From Chloroflexota bacterium (GTDB lineage Bacteria; Chloroflexota; Dehalococcoidia; Tepidiformales; Tepidiformaceae), in NCBI GenBank assembly GCA_026705605.1, contig JAPPAK010000001.1, positions 248,001 to 312,000 on the forward strand: a stretch of DNA of 64,000 bases. The letters are read 5' to 3'. The position numbers and the translations under genes were made by a program. Each line of letters opens with the position of its first letter. Position 1 is the first letter of the stretch. Under the pieces are notes generated by a model, which saw only the letters and a list, made by a program, of their open reading frames with translations, did no database searches and had not been told where the DNA came from. Shown here one piece after another: positions 4,934 through 30,169 of this stretch.

Positions 4934-4962
4934 TTGACCCTCACGCCATCCCTATTGATACT
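4934..4962 (+). promoter_or_regulatory. Sigma70-type promoter of the zinc lipoprotein gene
   Basis: A -35 hexamer TTGACC (4934-4939) and a -10 hexamer GATACT (4957-4962) are separated by exactly 17 bases, about 37 bases before the GTG start at 5000. A GAGGAG Shine-Dalgarno lies nine bases before that start. This shows the lipoprotein gene can be transcribed apart from the ABC exporter genes upstream. No clear Zur operator palindrome was seen over it. Confidence 0.6.
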
Positions 4963-4999
4963 GCGTCTCACTTAGCGCCAATGTGAGGAGCGAAGCGTA

Positions 5000-7447
5000 G
5001 TGCTCAGTCGACTTGGAACCGCAGCTGTCATAGCAGTTGCCCTGCTGGTGATCGCTTGCGGTGGCGAAGAGGAGAGGGCGGACGACACCGGGACCACCCT
5101 CTCAGTCGTGACATCCACGACGATCGTCGAGGACCTGGTGAAGCAGGTGGGTGGCGACCGCGTGTCGACCACGAGCATTGTTCCCCTCAATGCGGACGTT
5201 CACACGTTCCACGTCACACCGAGTGACATCACCAGGGCGGCGGAAGCGGACCTGCTCGTGATCGTCGGCAGCTCACTGAGCGTGGTCGAGGAGCAGCTTG
5301 CGGAGAGCGCCGGGGGCGCTGTGCTGGAATTGACGCACGACATGGATCTGCGGCCCTTCCCGGAGGCACTGGCGCACGACGACCACGACGACCATGACGA
5401 CCACGATGAGCACGAGCACGAAGACGAGCACGAAGACGAGCATGAGCACGAAGACGAGCACGAGCACGAAGACGAACATGAGCACGAAGACGAACATGAG
5501 CACGAAGACGAGCACGAGCACGAAGAAGAGGGAATGCATGAGGACGAGGACGACCACGGCGCGCCCGCCCTCGTTGGCCGCCTGCTCGTTGCGGATGGCG
5601 TAGCAGCACACCTCTCCGTCATCGACCTCTCGACCGATGACGTTGACAGCGGAGCCTTCGAAATCGCCGCGCCCAACGCGACCGTCTACTCAAGCCCCAC
5701 GCACCGTTACGGCATCGTCATCGCCCGCGGGCCGGATGCCGGCGACGACCGCATCCACCTCTTCGACGGTGGCGTGTTCTACGTCCCGCACGGCGATCAC
5801 TACGACCTGGTCACCGGGCCCGTCTCGCGCCATGCGCTTGAGATCGCCGAAGAATGGCCGGTCCACTTCGTCAACAGCCACGGCTGGACCACCATCTTCG
5901 CCGACACCAACGGCCACGTAATCCTGATTAACGAGCAAGATCTGACCAGTTCGGCCGGTGACTACGAGCCGATCGTGCTTGAGGCTGGAATCCAGCACGG
6001 CGCGGCGCTCGTCATTGCCGATGGCCACGTCATCCTCAGCTCCAACAACCCGGCCTGCACCGAGTTCATCCCGGGGACATGGGAATGCCTGCCACTCGGT
6101 GTTGAGGTGCGCACGTTCGACAACGAGGTCGTCTACGACGCAGCCAACCGCTCCTGCACAAACCTGCACGGCGAGGCGCACAACGCACACGGCGCCGTCT
6201 TCGGTTGCTGGGAAGGTGTGCTCTTCGTACACGCGCACGACGGGGACTACGAGCACGAAGTCATCCCCTATCCACCGGAGGTGGGTGAAGAGGGAGAGTT
6301 CGCGCTCGGCCAGTACTACGGACATCATCACAGCGACAACTTCTTCGCCCCCGCGACCCTCTTCCCCGACGGCCAGTGCTGTGCCCTGGGGGGCGTCTGG
6401 TTGGTCGACGTGGTCAACGGCGAAATGCGCGAGGTGTTCCCCGGACCGAGTGCTGCGGCTGCGTTCTCAAGCGACGGCGAGACCTTCTACATGCTCGCCG
6501 CTGACGGCGTTCTGCGAGCGTTCGACTCTCACGACGGCGAACTAATTGACAACATGCAGTTGGTCGACCCGTTCGAGATGGTGTTCGGACGTCCCTCGCC
6601 CTCGATCATCGTCGTCGGCGAGTGGCTCTACGTCGCCGACCCGAATAGCGGTCACGTCCTCGGGGTCCATCTCACGCACATGGAGATCGAAGAGGAGTGG
6701 CACGTCGGCGGTGCGCCGTCCAGCCTCGCCTTCGTCGGCGTCATCGCCGATGCCCACGACGACCATGACGAGCACGAGCACGAAGACGAGCACGAGCACG
6801 AAGACGAGCACGAAGACGAGGACGAGCACGAAGACGAACACGAGGACGAGCACGAAGACGAGCACGAGCACGAAGACGAGCACGAGGACGAGGACGAGCA
6901 CGGGCACGAAGACGAGCACGGCCACCATGGGCACGCCCATGGCGAGTTCGACCCGCATTTCTGGATGGACATCGACCTCACGATCGAAGCCGTCGAGGCA
7001 ATCCGGGACGAGCTGTCACGCCTCGATCCGGATGGAGCGGACTACTACCGCGAGCGGGCGGACGCCTACATCGCGGAGCTGCGGGAGCTCGACGACGAGA
7101 TCCGCGAACAGCTTGCCGGACTCCCCGAGGAGCGCCGCTACCTGGTCACCTTCCACGACGCCTACGGCTACTTCGCGGACCGCTACGGGCTGACGATCCT
7201 GGGCTTCGTGGTGGAAGGTCCGGAAGAGGAGCCGAGCGCATCGGCAATCTCGGAGCTGGTGGAGAGTATCGAGGAACTGGGGATACCCTATATCTTCAGC
7301 GAACCGCAGTTCAGTGCGCGTGTGATCGAGCAGATCGCCCGCGACACGGGCACGACCGTCCGCACGATTCCTTCCGGGGCCCTGGCTGAGGAGTACCCAA
7401 CCTATGTTGAGTTCCTGCGCGCCATCGCCAACGGCATCGCGGAGTGA
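5000..7447 (+). CDS. Zinc-binding lipoprotein: ZnuA/AztC-like substrate-binding protein with an inserted AztD-like metallochaperone propeller
   Basis: This 815-residue exported lipoprotein has a signal peptide ending in LVIAC (lipidated C20). Residues about 33-118 are the N-lobe of a cluster A-I metal-binding protein, including the ligand region DVHTFHVTPSD. Residues 126-186 are a His/Asp/Glu-rich tract. About 190-584 resemble the zinc metallochaperone AztD: segments such as VHFVNSHGWTTIFAD, INEQDL and CTNLHGEAHNAHG match the AztD pattern I know. A second His-rich tract spans 586-647. Residues 649-815 resume the substrate-binding protein with DPHFWMDI (H653), then TFHDAYGYFADRYG and FSEPQFSARVIEQ. 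Known ZnuA/AztC proteins carry only a short His-rich loop at this point, and AztD is normally a separate protein. Start: GTG with a GAGGAG site. No importer genes are adjacent, so it probably serves the ABC importer encoded at 28422-30169; that is inference. Confidence 0.88.
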   Translation: MLSRLGTAAVIAVALLVIACGGEEERADDTGTTLSVVTSTTIVEDLVKQVGGDRVSTTSIVPLNADVHTFHVTPSDITRAAEADLLVIVGSSLSVVEEQLAESAGGAVLELTHDMDLRPFPEALAHDDHDDHDDHDEHEHEDEHEDEHEHEDEHEHEDEHEHEDEHEHEDEHEHEEEGMHEDEDDHGAPALVGRLLVADGVAAHLSVIDLSTDDVDSGAFEIAAPNATVYSSPTHRYGIVIARGPDAGDDRIHLFDGGVFYVPHGDHYDLVTGPVSRHALEIAEEWPVHFVNSHGWTTIFADTNGHVILINEQDLTSSAGDYEPIVLEAGIQHGAALVIADGHVILSSNNPACTEFIPGTWECLPLGVEVRTFDNEVVYDAANRSCTNLHGEAHNAHGAVFGCWEGVLFVHAHDGDYEHEVIPYPPEVGEEGEFALGQYYGHHHSDNFFAPATLFPDGQCCALGGVWLVDVVNGEMREVFPGPSAAAAFSSDGETFYMLAADGVLRAFDSHDGELIDNMQLVDPFEMVFGRPSPSIIVVGEWLYVADPNSGHVLGVHLTHMEIEEEWHVGGAPSSLAFVGVIADAHDDHDEHEHEDEHEHEDEHEDEDEHEDEHEDEHEDEHEHEDEHEDEDEHGHEDEHGHHGHAHGEFDPHFWMDIDLTIEAVEAIRDELSRLDPDGADYYRERADAYIAELRELDDEIREQLAGLPEERRYLVTFHDAYGYFADRYGLTILGFVVEGPEEEPSASAISELVESIEELGIPYIFSEPQFSARVIEQIARDTGTTVRTIPSGALAEEYPTYVEFLRAIANGIAE
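5372..5557 (+). repeat. Coding minisatellite 1 (His/Asp/Glu-rich tract)
   Basis: An in-frame degenerate tandem repeat encodes mixtures of HDD, HEH and HED triplets, starting with AHDDHD and continuing as EHEHEDE-type units of 12 to 18 bases. It corresponds to residues 125-186 of the zinc lipoprotein. It closely resembles a second tract at 6752-6940 in the same reading frame and orientation, sharing a block of roughly 30 identical bases. Confidence 0.9.
6752..6940 (+). repeat. Coding minisatellite 2 (His/Asp/Glu-rich tract)
   Basis: This is the second in-frame His/Asp/Glu-rich tandem repeat, residues 585-647 of the zinc lipoprotein. It opens with the same AHDDHD sequence as the first tract and ends in a His-richer portion (HGHHGHAHG). 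Together the two tracts bracket the propeller domain as direct repeats about 1.38 kb apart. They probably bind zinc loosely and act as flexible tethers. Confidence 0.9.
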
Positions 7448-7691: not shown

Positions 7692-8819
7692 ATGACCGGC
7701 ACCAGCAGTGACATCGTCTATGACGTCGTAGTCGTCGGCGGGGGCGCCGCAGGCGTGGGGGTCTCAGTGGCGCTCAGGCACGCCGGCATCGAGAACTTCG
7801 TCGTTCTCGAGCGTCAAACGGTCGGGGCGTCATTCGCCTCGTGGCCGGCCGAAACTCGCTTCATCACGCCCTCGTACGCCACCAATTCGATCGGCATGCT
7901 CGATTTGAACTCGATCGCAATTGGAACGTCACCTGCGTTCAGCCTGGGCGTCGAGCACCCGACAGGTGCAGAGTACGCGACGCATTTGCGTACAGTCGCA
8001 CGATTCTTTGAGTTACCCGTACGCGAGTACACCGACGTGATGCGGATCGCGAAGGATGGAGACAACTTTCTCGTCGAGACGGCCCGCGAGACCCTGCAGG
8101 CCAGGAACGTCATCTGGGCTGCAGGCGAGTTCCAGTACCCACGCCTGACCGGGTTCGCCGGGAGCGAGCTGTGTCGCCACACCGCGACCATCCCGAGCTA
8201 TGACGAGATCGACGGTGACGACTTCATCGTTGTCGGTGGCTACGAGAGTGGAGTCGATGCCGCCTTTCACCTGGCGTGTCGCGACAAACGAGTGCGATTG
8301 TTCGACATGGACTGCCCGTGGGAGGCGGAGAGCTCCGACCCCAGCATTACGCTTTCCCCGTTCACGCTCGAGCGGATGCGTGAACGACGGTTCATGAGGC
8401 AGGTGGAGCTGTTTCCGAACACACCTGTCGAATCGGTGACTTGTGTGGACGGCACCTATGAAGTCACGTCTCAGGACGGGCAACGGTTTCAAACCTGCGT
8501 GCCGCCGCTCCTGGCGGGCGGCTTCGAGGGCAGTCACAGGCTGATCTCGTACATGTTTGAACAACGCGACGATGGCTCGCTGTTTCTCAGCGAAGACGAT
8601 GAATCGACGATCGTACCGGGGATATTTCTCTGCGGCCCCGCGGTGCGCCACAACGACCACGTCTTCTGCTTCATCTTCAAATTCCGGCAACGATTTGCCG
8701 TTGTCGCCAAGGCCGTGGCGACCTCGCTGGGGCTGCCCGCGGAAGACCTGGAGGCCTACCGCGACTGGGGCATGTATCTCGATGACCTTTCCTGTTGCGG
8801 GATAGAGTGCGCATGTTGA
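7692..8819 (+). CDS. FAD/NAD(P)-dependent oxidoreductase, CzcO-like flavoprotein
   Basis: This 375-residue protein has an N-terminal FAD-binding Rossmann motif (VVVVGGGAAGVGVSVAL, residues about 12-28). A second nucleotide-binding motif (DFIVVGGYESGVDAA) lies at about 177-191, and the ATG-type motif IFLCGPAVRH near 315. This is the layout of single-component flavin monooxygenases and thioredoxin-reductase-like proteins of the CzcO group. The extreme C-terminus ends in the cysteine cluster CCGIECAC, which is unusual and could bind metal or form disulfides. An AGGAGG site lies eight bases before the ATG. Base composition is visibly lower in GC than the flanking genes, suggesting transfer. It lies 244 bases after the zinc lipoprotein gene and just before a small membrane protein gene. 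Its substrate is unknown; a link to metal handling is inferred from context and the CzcO group name. Confidence 0.82.
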   Translation: MTGTSSDIVYDVVVVGGGAAGVGVSVALRHAGIENFVVLERQTVGASFASWPAETRFITPSYATNSIGMLDLNSIAIGTSPAFSLGVEHPTGAEYATHLRTVARFFELPVREYTDVMRIAKDGDNFLVETARETLQARNVIWAAGEFQYPRLTGFAGSELCRHTATIPSYDEIDGDDFIVVGGYESGVDAAFHLACRDKRVRLFDMDCPWEAESSDPSITLSPFTLERMRERRFMRQVELFPNTPVESVTCVDGTYEVTSQDGQRFQTCVPPLLAGGFEGSHRLISYMFEQRDDGSLFLSEDDESTIVPGIFLCGPAVRHNDHVFCFIFKFRQRFAVVAKAVATSLGLPAEDLEAYRDWGMYLDDLSCCGIECAC

Positions 8820-27201: not shown

Positions 27202-27275
27202 GGTGGGCGTAGCGTAGTGGTTAACGCGTCAGGTTGTGGCCCTGAAGATCGAGGGTTCAAATCCCTCCGTCCACC
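27202..27275 (+). tRNA. tRNA-His (GTG)
   Basis: The cloverleaf is complete. The acceptor stem GTGGGCG pairs with CGTCCAC (one G-U), with the extra G at position -1 opposite C73 that is diagnostic for tRNA-His. The anticodon stem CAGG/CCTG encloses TTGTGGC with anticodon GTG. The T-arm is GAGGG-TTCAAAT-CCCTC. A TACGAT -10-like hexamer at 27184-27189 lies upstream. CCA is not encoded. Confidence 0.95.
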
Positions 27276-27385
27276 CCAGCACTCTCCTTCGCTTCGGCGG
27301 CCGGCGTAACCACGCGGTCCAGATGCCACTGCCCTCTTCTTGCAGCCAATTGCAACTGCAACCCTCGGACGGTACGCTGCCCGTC

Positions 27386-28429
27386 GTGCCCCTCCACGCG
27401 ACCACCGGCGCCTTGAGACGGCTCGCCCTCGCGGCGCTGCTGATCCTGCTTCCTGGCGCGTTGGCCGTCGCCTGCGGCGGCGGCGATACCGCCCCGGCAA
27501 GCGACGGCGAGACCGCTTCCACCATCCATGTCGTGACGACCGTCTCGCCCATTCGCAACATCATCGAGAACGTCGGCGGCGACCGCGTCAGCGTGACCGC
27601 CATCGTCCCCGAAGGCACGAACTCCCACACCTTCGAACCCGCCCCCTCCGTCGCGCAGGACATCGCCCGCGCAGACCTCATCGTCGCCAACGGCCTCAAT
27701 CTCGAGCTCCCCGCGCTTGAACTCGCCGAGGCGAACCGCCGGGACGGCGTCGAGATCGTGCTGCTCGGGGAAGCCACCGTGACGCCTGACGAGTACGTCT
27801 ACGACTTCTCCTTCCCCCGCGACGGCGGCGACCCCAACCCCCACCTCTGGACCGACCCCATCCTTGCCGGCGAATACGCCGCCCACGTGCGCGATGCGCT
27901 TACCCGCCTCGACCCCGACAACGCCAGCTACTACGCCGCCAACACCGCCGCCTTCGTCGCCCGCCTGCAGCAGCTCGACGAGGCCATCAGGGAGGCCGTG
28001 GCCACCGTGCCCGAGGCGCAACGCGTGCTCCTCACCTACCACGACTCCTTCCCCTACTTCGCCCCCCGCTACGGCTTCACGATCATCGGCGCGATCCAGC
28101 CGTCCGACTTCTCCGAGCCCTCCCCCCGCGAAGTCGCCGACCTGATCAAGCAGATCCGCGCCTCGGGAGCGCCCGCCATCTTCGGCTCCGAGGTCTTCCC
28201 CTCCGAGGTGCTGGACACGATCGCGAGCGAGGCCGGCGCCGTGCAGGTCGCCACCCTGCGTGACGACGACCTCCCTGGCGACCGCGGTGATCCGGAGAAC
28301 ACCTACCTCGCCATGATGGTCGAGAACGTCCGCACCATCGTGACCAGCCTCGGCGGCGACGCCTCCGCCCTCGATGGCTTCGACGTGAGCCTTAGCTGGA
28401 CCCCCTTCGAGGAGTACGCCGGTGGTTGA
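27386..28429 (+). CDS. Metal ABC transporter substrate-binding lipoprotein (ZnuA/MntC-like)
   Basis: From GTG 27386 the protein is 347 residues with a lipoprotein signal (LALAALLILLPGALAVAC). The cluster A-I metal-binding fold shows the ligand regions GTNSHTFEPAPS, NPHLWTDP, TYHDSFPYFAPRYG and IFGSEVFPSEV. It binds Zn or Mn outside the membrane for the importer encoded just downstream. Unlike the 815-residue lipoprotein at 5000, it has no His-rich loop and no propeller. The frame is open to 27236, but that would run into tRNA-His; ATG 27323 is an alternative start that would give a less typical signal peptide. It overlaps the ATPase gene by eight bases. Confidence 0.93.
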   Translation: MPLHATTGALRRLALAALLILLPGALAVACGGGDTAPASDGETASTIHVVTTVSPIRNIIENVGGDRVSVTAIVPEGTNSHTFEPAPSVAQDIARADLIVANGLNLELPALELAEANRRDGVEIVLLGEATVTPDEYVYDFSFPRDGGDPNPHLWTDPILAGEYAAHVRDALTRLDPDNASYYAANTAAFVARLQQLDEAIREAVATVPEAQRVLLTYHDSFPYFAPRYGFTIIGAIQPSDFSEPSPREVADLIKQIRASGAPAIFGSEVFPSEVLDTIASEAGAVQVATLRDDDLPGDRGDPENTYLAMMVENVRTIVTSLGGDASALDGFDVSLSWTPFEEYAGG

Positions 28430-29294
28430 GCTTGCCCCCAGCGCCCCCGGACACCGCCCGCCGCCCCATCCCGATGGCGAACCCCTGGTGGAGCTCCGCG
28501 ACCTGAGCACGGGCTACGAGCGCACGCCCGTGCTCCAGAACGTCGACTTCACCCTGCGGCGCGGCGAGTTCGCCGGCGTCGTCGGGCCGAGCGGGTCGGG
28601 CAAGACGACCCTGCTGCGCGCCATCGCCGGCCAGACTCGGCGCTTCGCCGGCGCCATCGAGGCGACGCCGCGAGCCGGGGAGCGCGCCCTCCGGCTCGGC
28701 TATGTGCCCCAGGTCGAGGCCATCAACTGGAACTTCCCCCTCACGGTCGGCCAGGCCGTCCTGCTGGGACGCTGGCGGGAGATGGGCTGGCGGCCCTGGC
28801 CCCGCCGCCATGACCGCGAGCTGCTCGCGAACATCCTCGAGCGGCTCGGCATCGGGCACCTCGCGAACCGGCAGATCAGGGCGCTCTCGGGAGGCCAGCA
28901 GCAGCGCACCTTCCTCGCCCGCGCCCTCATCGGCGACCCCGACCTCCTCCTCCTTGACGAACCCACCAGCGGCGTCGACATCAAGACGCGCCACGAGATC
29001 ATGCACCTCCTCGGCGAGCTGAACCGCGCCGGCACCACCATCCTCATGTCCACCCACGACCTCAACGCCGTCGCCACCCACCTCCCCCGCCTCGTCTGCG
29101 TGGGCGAGGGCGCCCTCGTCGCCGACGGCTCCCCCGAGGAGGTGCTCACGCCCGAGGTCCTGCGCCGCACCTACGGCGCCGAGATGCTCGTGCTGCGCCG
29201 CGGCGATGCCATCTACGTCGTCGAGCACCTCGACGACGCCATGACCGGCGACGCCGAGGAGACCCCCGTCCCCGTGGCCCCCGTGGGCGGCTAG
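28422..29294 (+). CDS. Metal ABC transporter ATP-binding protein (ZnuC-like)
   Basis: This 290-residue ATPase starts at GTG 28422. It has Walker A (GPSGSGKTT), the Q-loop, the signature SGGQQQRTFLARAL, Walker B and glutamate (LLLLDEPTSGVD) and the H-loop (STHDL). The segment VPQVEAINWNFPLTVGQAVLLGR is typical of the Zn/Mn/Fe (ZnuC/MntB/SitB) subgroup. The N-terminal 20 residues are a Pro/His-rich extension (PGHRPPPHPDGEP) and the C-terminus carries an extra 25-residue acidic/Pro tail. It sits between the substrate-binding and permease genes and could also energise uptake of zinc delivered by the lipoprotein at 5000. Confidence 0.95.
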   Translation: MVELAPSAPGHRPPPHPDGEPLVELRDLSTGYERTPVLQNVDFTLRRGEFAGVVGPSGSGKTTLLRAIAGQTRRFAGAIEATPRAGERALRLGYVPQVEAINWNFPLTVGQAVLLGRWREMGWRPWPRRHDRELLANILERLGIGHLANRQIRALSGGQQQRTFLARALIGDPDLLLLDEPTSGVDIKTRHEIMHLLGELNRAGTTILMSTHDLNAVATHLPRLVCVGEGALVADGSPEEVLTPEVLRRTYGAEMLVLRRGDAIYVVEHLDDAMTGDAEETPVPVAPVGG

Positions 29295-29296
29295 CC

Positions 29297-30169
29297 GTGG
29301 GCGATCTGACCGAGCCGTTCCAGTTCGAGTTCTTTGTGCGCGGCATGGTAGCCGCCACGCTGGTTGGCCTGCTGTGCGGAGCCGTCGGCGTGTACGTCGT
29401 GCTCCGCAGCCTCGCCTACATCGGCCACGGGCTCGCGCACAGCATTTTCGGCGGGGCCGTCGTCTCCTTCGTCTCCGGCATCAGCTTCTATATCGGCGCG
29501 ACGCTCTGGGGCGTGTTCACCGTCCTCCTCATCAACGCCGCCGCCCGCCGCCGCCAGATCGGCGGAGACGCCGCCATCGGCATCATCACCACCTGCGCCT
29601 TCGCCCTCGGTGTCGCCCTGATCAGCCGCCACGGCCAGTTCACCCGCGACTTCGACGCAGCGCTCTTCGGCGAGATTCTGGGCATTACCAGCGGCGATCT
29701 CGCCGTCATCGGTGGGGTCCTCGTCCTCGCCGCTGCCGTCGTCTTCGCCTTCTGGAAGCAGCTCCTCTTCACCACCTTCGACTCTGACGTCGCCAGCACC
29801 TACGGCGTTCCCGTCCCCTGGGTGGAGGCGCTCTTCTCGCTCGTGCTCGCGGCGACCGTGATCGCCTCCCTCCAGGTGCTCGGCGCGACCCTGATAGCAG
29901 CCGCCCTCGTCATCCCCCCCGTCACCGCCCGCCTCCTGACCGACTCATTCACCCGCATGTTCACGCTGGCCGCCTTGCTGGGCGGGGCCAGTGGGCTCGT
30001 CGGCGTGTACGTCTCCTGGTTCATCGACGTCTCCTCCGGCGCGACCGTCGTGCTCCTGCAGGGCGCGCTCTTCGCCCTCGCGCTGGTCTGGGCGGTCGCC
30101 CGCTCGCGCTGGCCCGGCAGCGGCAGCGGCGAGCGCCTCGCCGCCATCGAAGGCGCCGCCATCGACTGA
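29297..30169 (+). CDS. Metal ABC transporter permease (ZnuB-like)
   Basis: This 290-residue ABC-3 family permease starts at GTG 29297, two bases after the ATPase stop. It has eight to nine membrane helices, the early GLLCGAVGVYVVLRSLAYIG motif, SIFGGAVVSF, and the coupling region TYGVPVPWVEALFSLVLAATV followed by GATLIAAALVIPPVTARLL, which are typical of ZnuB/MntC-type subunits. It forms the membrane channel of the Zn/Mn importer. The last 22 codons (from 30102) also occur, slightly diverged, at 31301-31368 beyond an HNH gene, showing that something inserted at the 3' end of this gene. Confidence 0.95.
   Translation: MGDLTEPFQFEFFVRGMVAATLVGLLCGAVGVYVVLRSLAYIGHGLAHSIFGGAVVSFVSGISFYIGATLWGVFTVLLINAAARRRQIGGDAAIGIITTCAFALGVALISRHGQFTRDFDAALFGEILGITSGDLAVIGGVLVLAAAVVFAFWKQLLFTTFDSDVASTYGVPVPWVEALFSLVLAATVIASLQVLGATLIAAALVIPPVTARLLTDSFTRMFTLAALLGGASGLVGVYVSWFIDVSSGATVVLLQGALFALALVWAVARSRWPGSGSGERLAAIEGAAID
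30102..30169 (+). repeat. Direct repeat copy A: 3' end of the permease gene
   Basis: These 68 bases, ending in the permease stop codon, match 63 of 68 bases at 31301-31368 in the same orientation. Copy A encodes SRWPGSGSGERLAAIEGAAI; copy B encodes the same peptide with two Ser to Thr changes. Together they flank the HNH cassette. Confidence 0.95.

Follow-up and report, generated by a model that had tools for sequence, protein, structure and literature searches.

A ZnuA/AztC-type lipoprotein with an AztD-like propeller nested between its lobes in a Chloroflexota bacterium

Introduction

In AztABCD of Paracoccus denitrificans, the substrate-binding protein (SBP) AztC and the metallochaperone AztD are two distinct proteins whose contact is only brief (PMC6689063). 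Site 2 of AztD, to which the N- and C-terminal strands and one hairpin contribute, is the only site giving zinc to AztC, and site 1 has been suggested to serve for storage (PMC6689063). According to the docking model, site 2 enters the AztC cleft and a loop of AztC enters the propeller pore; direct transfer from AztD to AztC is slow since the proteins must first meet (PMC6689063). In AdcA, the known fusion of an SBP with a chaperone, import did not require the second domain (PMC7858048); by analogy, a domain fused to an SBP may prove dispensable.

Here we describe a gene in a 64,000-nucleotide stretch of Chloroflexota DNA (the window), for which an earlier note, made from the letters alone, had proposed that an AztD-like propeller is nested inside a zinc-binding lipoprotein of the ZnuA/AztC type.

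Domain architecture of the nested protein

Positions 5000-7447 of the window form a single reading frame on the plus strand with a GTG start and 815 open codons, encoding 815 amino acids. The N-terminus carries a lipoprotein signal (lipobox LVIAC, Cys20), followed by the N-lobe, a His/Asp/Glu tract, the AztD-like propeller, a second tract and the C-lobe. The features are:

5000..7447, plus strand: nested lipoprotein gene, 815 aa (reading frame, Pfam and NCBIfam profiles)
5057..5059, plus strand: lipobox Cys20 (Cys in 29 of the 31 nested proteins of the alignment)
5075..5353, plus strand: SBP N-lobe, residues 26-118, with ligand H68 at 5201-5203 (profiles, alignment)
5372..5566, plus strand: first His/Asp/Glu tract (tract 1), residues 125-189 (tandemly repeated DNA, period 18; pLDDT below 50 for 137-188)
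5567..6751, plus strand: AztD-like propeller, residues 190-584 (profiles, structure match, model)
5789..5806, plus strand: AztD site 2, H264, H267 and D269, corresponding to H99, H102 and D104 of P. denitrificans (structure-sequence alignment)
5864..6169, plus strand: AztD site 1, H289 (5864), H333 (5996) and H390 (6167), corresponding to H124, H167 and H218 of P. denitrificans (alignment)
6155..6208, plus strand: C386 and C403, counterpart of the AztD disulfide C214-C231 (alignment)
6755..6940, plus strand: second His/Asp/Glu tract (tract 2), residues 586-647 (tandemly repeated DNA, period 18; pLDDT below 50 for 586-646)
6944..7444, plus strand: SBP C-lobe, residues 649-815, with ligands H653 (6956) and H719 (7154) (profiles, alignment)

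The Pfam profile ZnuA (PF01297; 1.9e-60) matches two stretches at both ends of the protein, and its 205.1 bits exceed the gathering threshold of 29. The NCBIfam profile AztC (NF040870; 3.9e-61) likewise matches in two stretches, and AztD (NF038015; 4.5e-32) covers residues 197-579 with nearly its full length (profile positions 1-354 of 356). Both NCBIfam scores (206.9 bits for AztC, 111.2 bits for AztD) lie below the curated cut-offs of 350 and 400, respectively, so that "AztC-like" and "AztD-like" are the proper wording. Residues 190-584 alone match the solved AztD structures 6ck1 (6.6e-17) and 6cmk (4.6e-11). The ZinT family was absent among the listed Pfam and NCBIfam matches, and the chain ends with the C-lobe. 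The profile borders (N-lobe 26-111, propeller 191-582, C-lobe 642-814) agree with those that the earlier note had drawn.

Structure prediction gave a model with a mean pLDDT of 79.5 and a pTM of 0.59, in which the propeller and the lobes have high confidence and both tracts fall below 50. Its best nine Foldseek matches were AztD chains (TMt 0.84-0.86; blades were not counted), followed by ZnuA/AztC-type SBPs matching over one lobe. A second model, for the short-tract protein L054 from another family of the phylum, reached a mean pLDDT of 85.4 and again a pTM of 0.59; AztD chains were its best matches (TMt 0.84-0.87). Most SBP chains matched one lobe only, but some, holo AztC 5w57_A among them, aligned over about 690 columns (TMt 0.87, reported rmsd 10.9). 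We read this as two lobes predicted to close around the insert and form one complete SBP. The placement of the propeller relative to the SBP remains undetermined, given the pTM of 0.59 in both models.

Profile searches and predicted structures thus agree on the nested order in one chain, on the AztD relationship of the propeller and on the ZnuA/AztC relationship of the joined lobes, all of which the earlier note had inferred.

Occurrence in other genomes

The same order of N-lobe, propeller and C-lobe was sought elsewhere, in 99 related genomes, in a contig scan (22 loci) and in wider searches, with the frames read by three profiles. It was found in 31 distinct complete proteins from 29 genome handles, distributed over Chloroflexota and a class labelled Acidimicrobiia; one further case (L036) is cut by a contig end and stands outside the 31. 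Both the AztC and the AztD profile match all 31. Nine pairs are more than 90% identical, so the 31 proteins are not 31 independent cases. In every one of them the insert lies in the SBP loop and never at an SBP end, in a search that itself used parts of the window protein.

Could the join be an assembly chimera, created through the repeats that encode histidine? The tract DNA is repetitive and does break or gap assemblies in this genus, with 10 N in L050 and L206 and 100 N in L205. The same order nevertheless occurs in 31 distinct proteins of independent assemblies. In a second genome of the genus (G006, locus L023), it was found on a separate 287-kb contig with 94% protein identity to the window protein and with the same flanking genes. 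This genome and the 29 further distinct proteins exclude a false join of two genes and refute a chimera as the origin of the design; we see practically no room left for it. The nested architecture of a zinc SBP with an AztD-like propeller is therefore confirmed as real and is no assembly artefact. None of the outcomes that would have overturned the earlier proposal (no propeller, no similarity to AztD, an artefactual join) occurred.

How frequent the design is depends on the group sampled. In a sample of 400 genomes from the phylum, five gave propeller matches at 1e-10, and each of the five encodes a nested propeller; within genus g38, 10 of 11 sampled genomes encode a nested SBP. The class of G475, labelled Acidimicrobiia, gave propeller matches in 11 of 296 genomes: five fully nested, L036 cut by the contig end, and five un-nested. 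An Actinomycetota sample around G475 gave an AztD match at 1e-20 in 15 of 296 genomes, with nesting only in G475. Nine of the remaining 14 were read from their DNA, two have separate propellers and three were judged from open frames that are too short; in seven of the nine, an SBP gene lies near a separate propeller gene, as in AztABCD. G1087, a candidate because of its 838-residue frame, proved not to be nested when its DNA was read. A search of viral contigs found no relative. Many of the records carry isolate names that we take to denote sponge metagenomes.

Some loci depart from the common form. L164 (G848) encodes a very divergent nested protein, 29% identical to that of the window, with znuC, znuB and fur around it. 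Genomes near that of the window hold other propeller arrangements: a 991-aa chain with two AztD-like propellers (L030, 6243-9218) and two adjacent separate propeller genes (L032, 6091-9191).

Conservation of metal ligands

The SBP histidines H68, H653 and H719, the site 2 residues H264 and D269 and the cysteines C386 and C403 are present in all 31 nested proteins of the alignment; H267 is kept in 30, H289 in 30, H333 in 29 and H390 in 28. All six AztD site residues and both cysteines coincide with residues of the window protein in the AztD alignment. Losses of site residues are confined to L054, L055 and L163, in which the site 1 histidines are partly gone and D269 and H264 of site 2 are still present; L055 additionally lacks H267. 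As far as this alignment goes, site 2 is better conserved than site 1 across the nested proteins. The fourth ligand of site 2, a C-terminal histidine in AztD, may have its counterpart in H586, which stands at the ungapped place in a hand count on the alignment.

The acidic fourth SBP ligand (Asp/Glu near residue 280) is absent in all 31 nested proteins; the column of residue 793, mapped by alignment, holds Gly in 17, Gln in 13 and Val in one. We considered its absence as a hallmark of nesting and rejected this, since 36 of 54 un-nested SBPs also lack Asp/Glu there (18 have it). The tracts of L163 and L164 contain just two or three histidines each.

Gene neighbourhood

In 14 of the 31 nested loci, the gene immediately downstream on the same strand encodes a ZnuC-like ATPase. 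Twelve of the borders between the two genes range from a 13-nt overlap to adjacency; in L080 and L165 the overlap of the longest frame is about 107 nt. A znuB-like gene lies further on in 13 of the 14 (4 kb off in L029); the flank of L055 ends too soon. In seven other loci (L047, L031, L039 and L157-L160), a znuB-like gene is located downstream on the opposite strand. The nested gene is often the sole SBP-like gene in a znuA-znuC-znuB order, and a fur-family gene is found upstream of the nested genes of L040 and L164.

The nested gene of the window has neither znuB nor znuC next to it. An FtsX-type permease and its ATPase are encoded upstream and a pyridine-nucleotide oxidoreductase downstream; the latter (7692-8819, 375 aa, Pyr_redox_3) has relatives within 2 kb of nested genes, four loci in all (the window, L023, L038 and L161), and also lies beside the gapped SBP of L050. 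The same genome encodes a separate aztD as well as a canonical znuA-znuC-znuB with divergent fur (znuA at L046, 7885-9312). Elsewhere in the window (27203-30169), a second AztC-like SBP gene, which lacks a His tract, comes directly after a tRNA-His gene (27203-27278). The frames behind it resemble those of an ATPase and a permease. Since the GTG start codon at 27236 overlaps the tRNA, translation of this SBP must begin later.

Upstream of the nested gene we found a repeat:

4955..4971, no strand assigned: imperfect inverted repeat, 28 nt before the nested start codon, with 2 mismatches to a perfect repeat before aztD

It is possibly an operator of the Fur/Zur family, going by its letters. Allowing up to two mismatches, the pattern derived from the aztD repeat occurs at 5 sites in 2.79 Mb and a reversed control pattern at none; the match at aztD itself is true by construction. 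A like repeat (L198, 3797-3813) immediately precedes the genes of a Peripla_BP_2 lipoprotein and a FecCD permease, and thus one metal regulator may control aztD, the nested gene and this importer. At L197 and L199, two of the five sites, no metal gene is evident in the expected position, and the repeat at the genome's canonical znuA is merely a looser one, so that Zur regulation is a lead and no more. A near-perfect inverted repeat resembling a Fur/Zur box is also present upstream of L033, L043 and L099, which comprise nested and un-nested SBP genes; L099 and L033 share the same repeat.

Probable exchange of the propeller between hosts

Judged from the comparisons below, the propeller behaves as a portable cassette that was exchanged between different host ZnuA genes. 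Thirteen pairs, chosen for contrast, were compared for propeller and lobe identity. The window protein and L026 share 79% of the propeller and 38% of the lobes, and L026 and L054 the reverse, 35% and 79%. Similar contrasts were seen for L035/L026 (77% and 38%) and L038/L037 (79% and 39%), and little contrast for L157/L037 (87% and 77%). The window propeller is 75-79% identical to those of L026, L028, L029, L033, L043, L089 and L031; the lobes of these proteins share only 31-47% identity with those of the window protein.

The window lobes resemble instead the canonical ZnuA of the same genome, with 71% identity in the N-lobe and 100%, after rounding, in the C-lobe. The DNA of the two genes has 11 mismatches in the last 545 nt, two of them in the stop codon, and none at positions 31-400 from the end; the N-lobe DNA is about 79% identical. 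Gene conversion or a partial duplication reaching up to the second tract may have produced this C-lobe.

A simpler history would have an old nested gene inherited vertically, its propeller and lobes changing at different rates. Propellers are under constraint, and transfer of whole genes between phyla explains part of the spread, yet different rates do not fit identity contrasts that run both ways, as in the pairs window/L026 and L026/L054. The trees speak against it as well: the window lobes group with un-nested ZnuA of their own genus (starred support of 100), and AU tests rejected a single clade of nested lobes (p 2e-45), a single clade of propellers from f21 hosts (p 1.7e-12) and one clade of lobes joining the window, L004 and the f21 group (p 2.4e-6; this group was named after the tree had been seen). 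In the lobe tree, the nested lobes stand in several places and require 6 changes, at least 4 of them forced by starred branches; the propeller tree needs 5, with the truncated L036 counted as un-nested. Support in these quickly built trees comes from SH-aLRT alone, and the branch of L164 is long. Taken together, we regard purely vertical inheritance as very unlikely and prefer exchange of the propeller.

Where would such an exchange be joined? In six chosen pairs that were scanned, the level of identity shifts in the tracts, near residues 181-200 and 581-600. The two tracts of one protein are more alike than tracts of different proteins (0 of 2000 permutations, tripeptides), and the Glu shares of tracts 1 and 2 are correlated (Spearman 0.68); kinship was not corrected for in either comparison. 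The repetitive His-tract DNA is thus a probable recombination joint. The propeller of L031 is itself mosaic compared with L005, with a change near residue 420, so exchange was not at the tracts alone.

The un-nested SBP L099 (G621), lying on a 6-kb stretch without any N, is identical to the nested L033 at 261 of 268 lobe positions (97.4%) and has one tract and no insert. Its single His tract supports the view, put forward in the earlier note, that the insertion sits where the usual His-rich loop is. Its placement inside a nested clade favours loss of the propeller in G621; the direction is unproven. The syntenic locus of G003 (L050) has both lobes and no propeller, but 10 N in its tract make it uninformative as an empty site. 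G001 and G005 each encode a second un-nested SBP without gaps, in neighbourhoods that differ from the nested locus.

It can thus be suggested, as a hypothesis for which we would give slightly less than even chances, that the His loop of ZnuA is a landing site at which propellers were gained, lost and swapped across phyla through a joint of His/Asp/Glu-coding DNA, giving single-chain relays from site 2 to the cleft.

Proposed function

We consider it somewhat probable that the protein is a surface lipoprotein of the ZnuA/AztC type, its loop replaced by tract, propeller and tract, in which zinc is passed within the chain from site 2 to the cleft, and whose propeller is an exchanged cassette. It would be a cell-surface cluster A-I SBP, with its tracts and the propeller collecting zinc. 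In AztD, site 2 is located at the terminal strands, and nesting through the termini sets it beside both junctions; from this position and the published docking model, a tethered collector can be inferred. Site 2 would then hand zinc within the chain to the three-histidine cleft of H68, H653 and H719, and the loaded lobes would dock on a ZnuBC transporter and deliver zinc to ZnuB. Where znuC and znuB follow, this transporter might be the protein's own; in the window genome it might be the transporter whose genes adjoin the canonical znuA. The encounter of the two proteins, which limits transfer from AztD to AztC, would drop out as a step. A chaperone held at the cleft and the hand-over of zinc are inferences; there are no binding, transfer or uptake data.

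It might also be possible that the propeller serves as an accessory buffer or store of zinc, feeding the surroundings or helping under severe shortage without direct hand-over to its own cleft. The dispensable ZinT domain of AdcA offers a precedent (PMC7858048), the long tracts are disordered with low confidence in both models, and site 1, the suggested storage site (PMC6689063), is kept in at least 28 of the 31 proteins. However, site 2 and not site 1 is the better conserved, and the insert is in the SBP loop in all 31, even if parts of the window protein served as queries. A buffer is thus a possibility to be kept in mind, which we hold to be rather unlikely.

A role in trans, in which the protein loads other SBPs, for instance the genome's canonical ZnuA, would suit the window copy, which has no adjacent znuB or znuC while ZnuA and ZnuCB are encoded elsewhere in the genome. 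It does not fit the 14 of 31 loci in which the nested gene is the SBP gene directly before znuC, nor the retention of the three SBP histidines in all 31, and a C-lobe identical to that of the canonical ZnuA is what docking on the same transporter would lead one to expect. We therefore judge action in trans improbable and retain the in-chain relay as our preferred reading.

A chain in which SBP and chaperone are fused at the loop governing their encounter would allow the transfer step to be studied without association. L099 and L033 provide a natural comparison without and with the propeller. Beyond zinc, the mosaic record suggests that low-complexity metal-binding tracts can be joints for the exchange of whole folded domains.

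Comparison with known systems

Literature searches found no description of the nested order among the matches listed, with subscription journals mostly outside their scope; protein databases with names were not part of the search, and an unreported annotation may exist. As a correction to the earlier note, the protein is not singular, since the design occurs in at least 29 genome handles.

AdcA of Streptococcus pneumoniae is likewise a single lipoprotein in which a zinc SBP, of cluster A-I, is combined with an accessory domain that binds zinc (PMC7858048). That domain, ZinT, follows the SBP at the C-terminus through a linker of 11 residues, whereas the propeller of the nested protein lies inside a loop. 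The "anchored repeat" zinc SBPs of Corynebacteria (TIGR03772) offer a further comparison: the window C-lobe matches positions 311-482 of the 486-position profile, which leaves space for an insert ahead of the C-lobe. A search for members in 119 genomes at E 1e-80 found none, but no control matched either. The genome's own canonical ZnuA (L046, 7885-9312) has an identical C-lobe, an N-lobe with 71% identity and a His-rich loop at the same place; in contrast to the nested protein, it has no propeller, and its gene is followed by znuC and znuB with fur divergent.

The closest likeness is to AztC and AztD themselves, to which the halves of the nested protein are homologous by profile and fold and with which it shares the residues of site 1, site 2 and the disulfide. 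What are two proteins there is one chain here, and the propeller replaces the very loop of AztC that was modelled to enter the AztD pore (PMC6689063).
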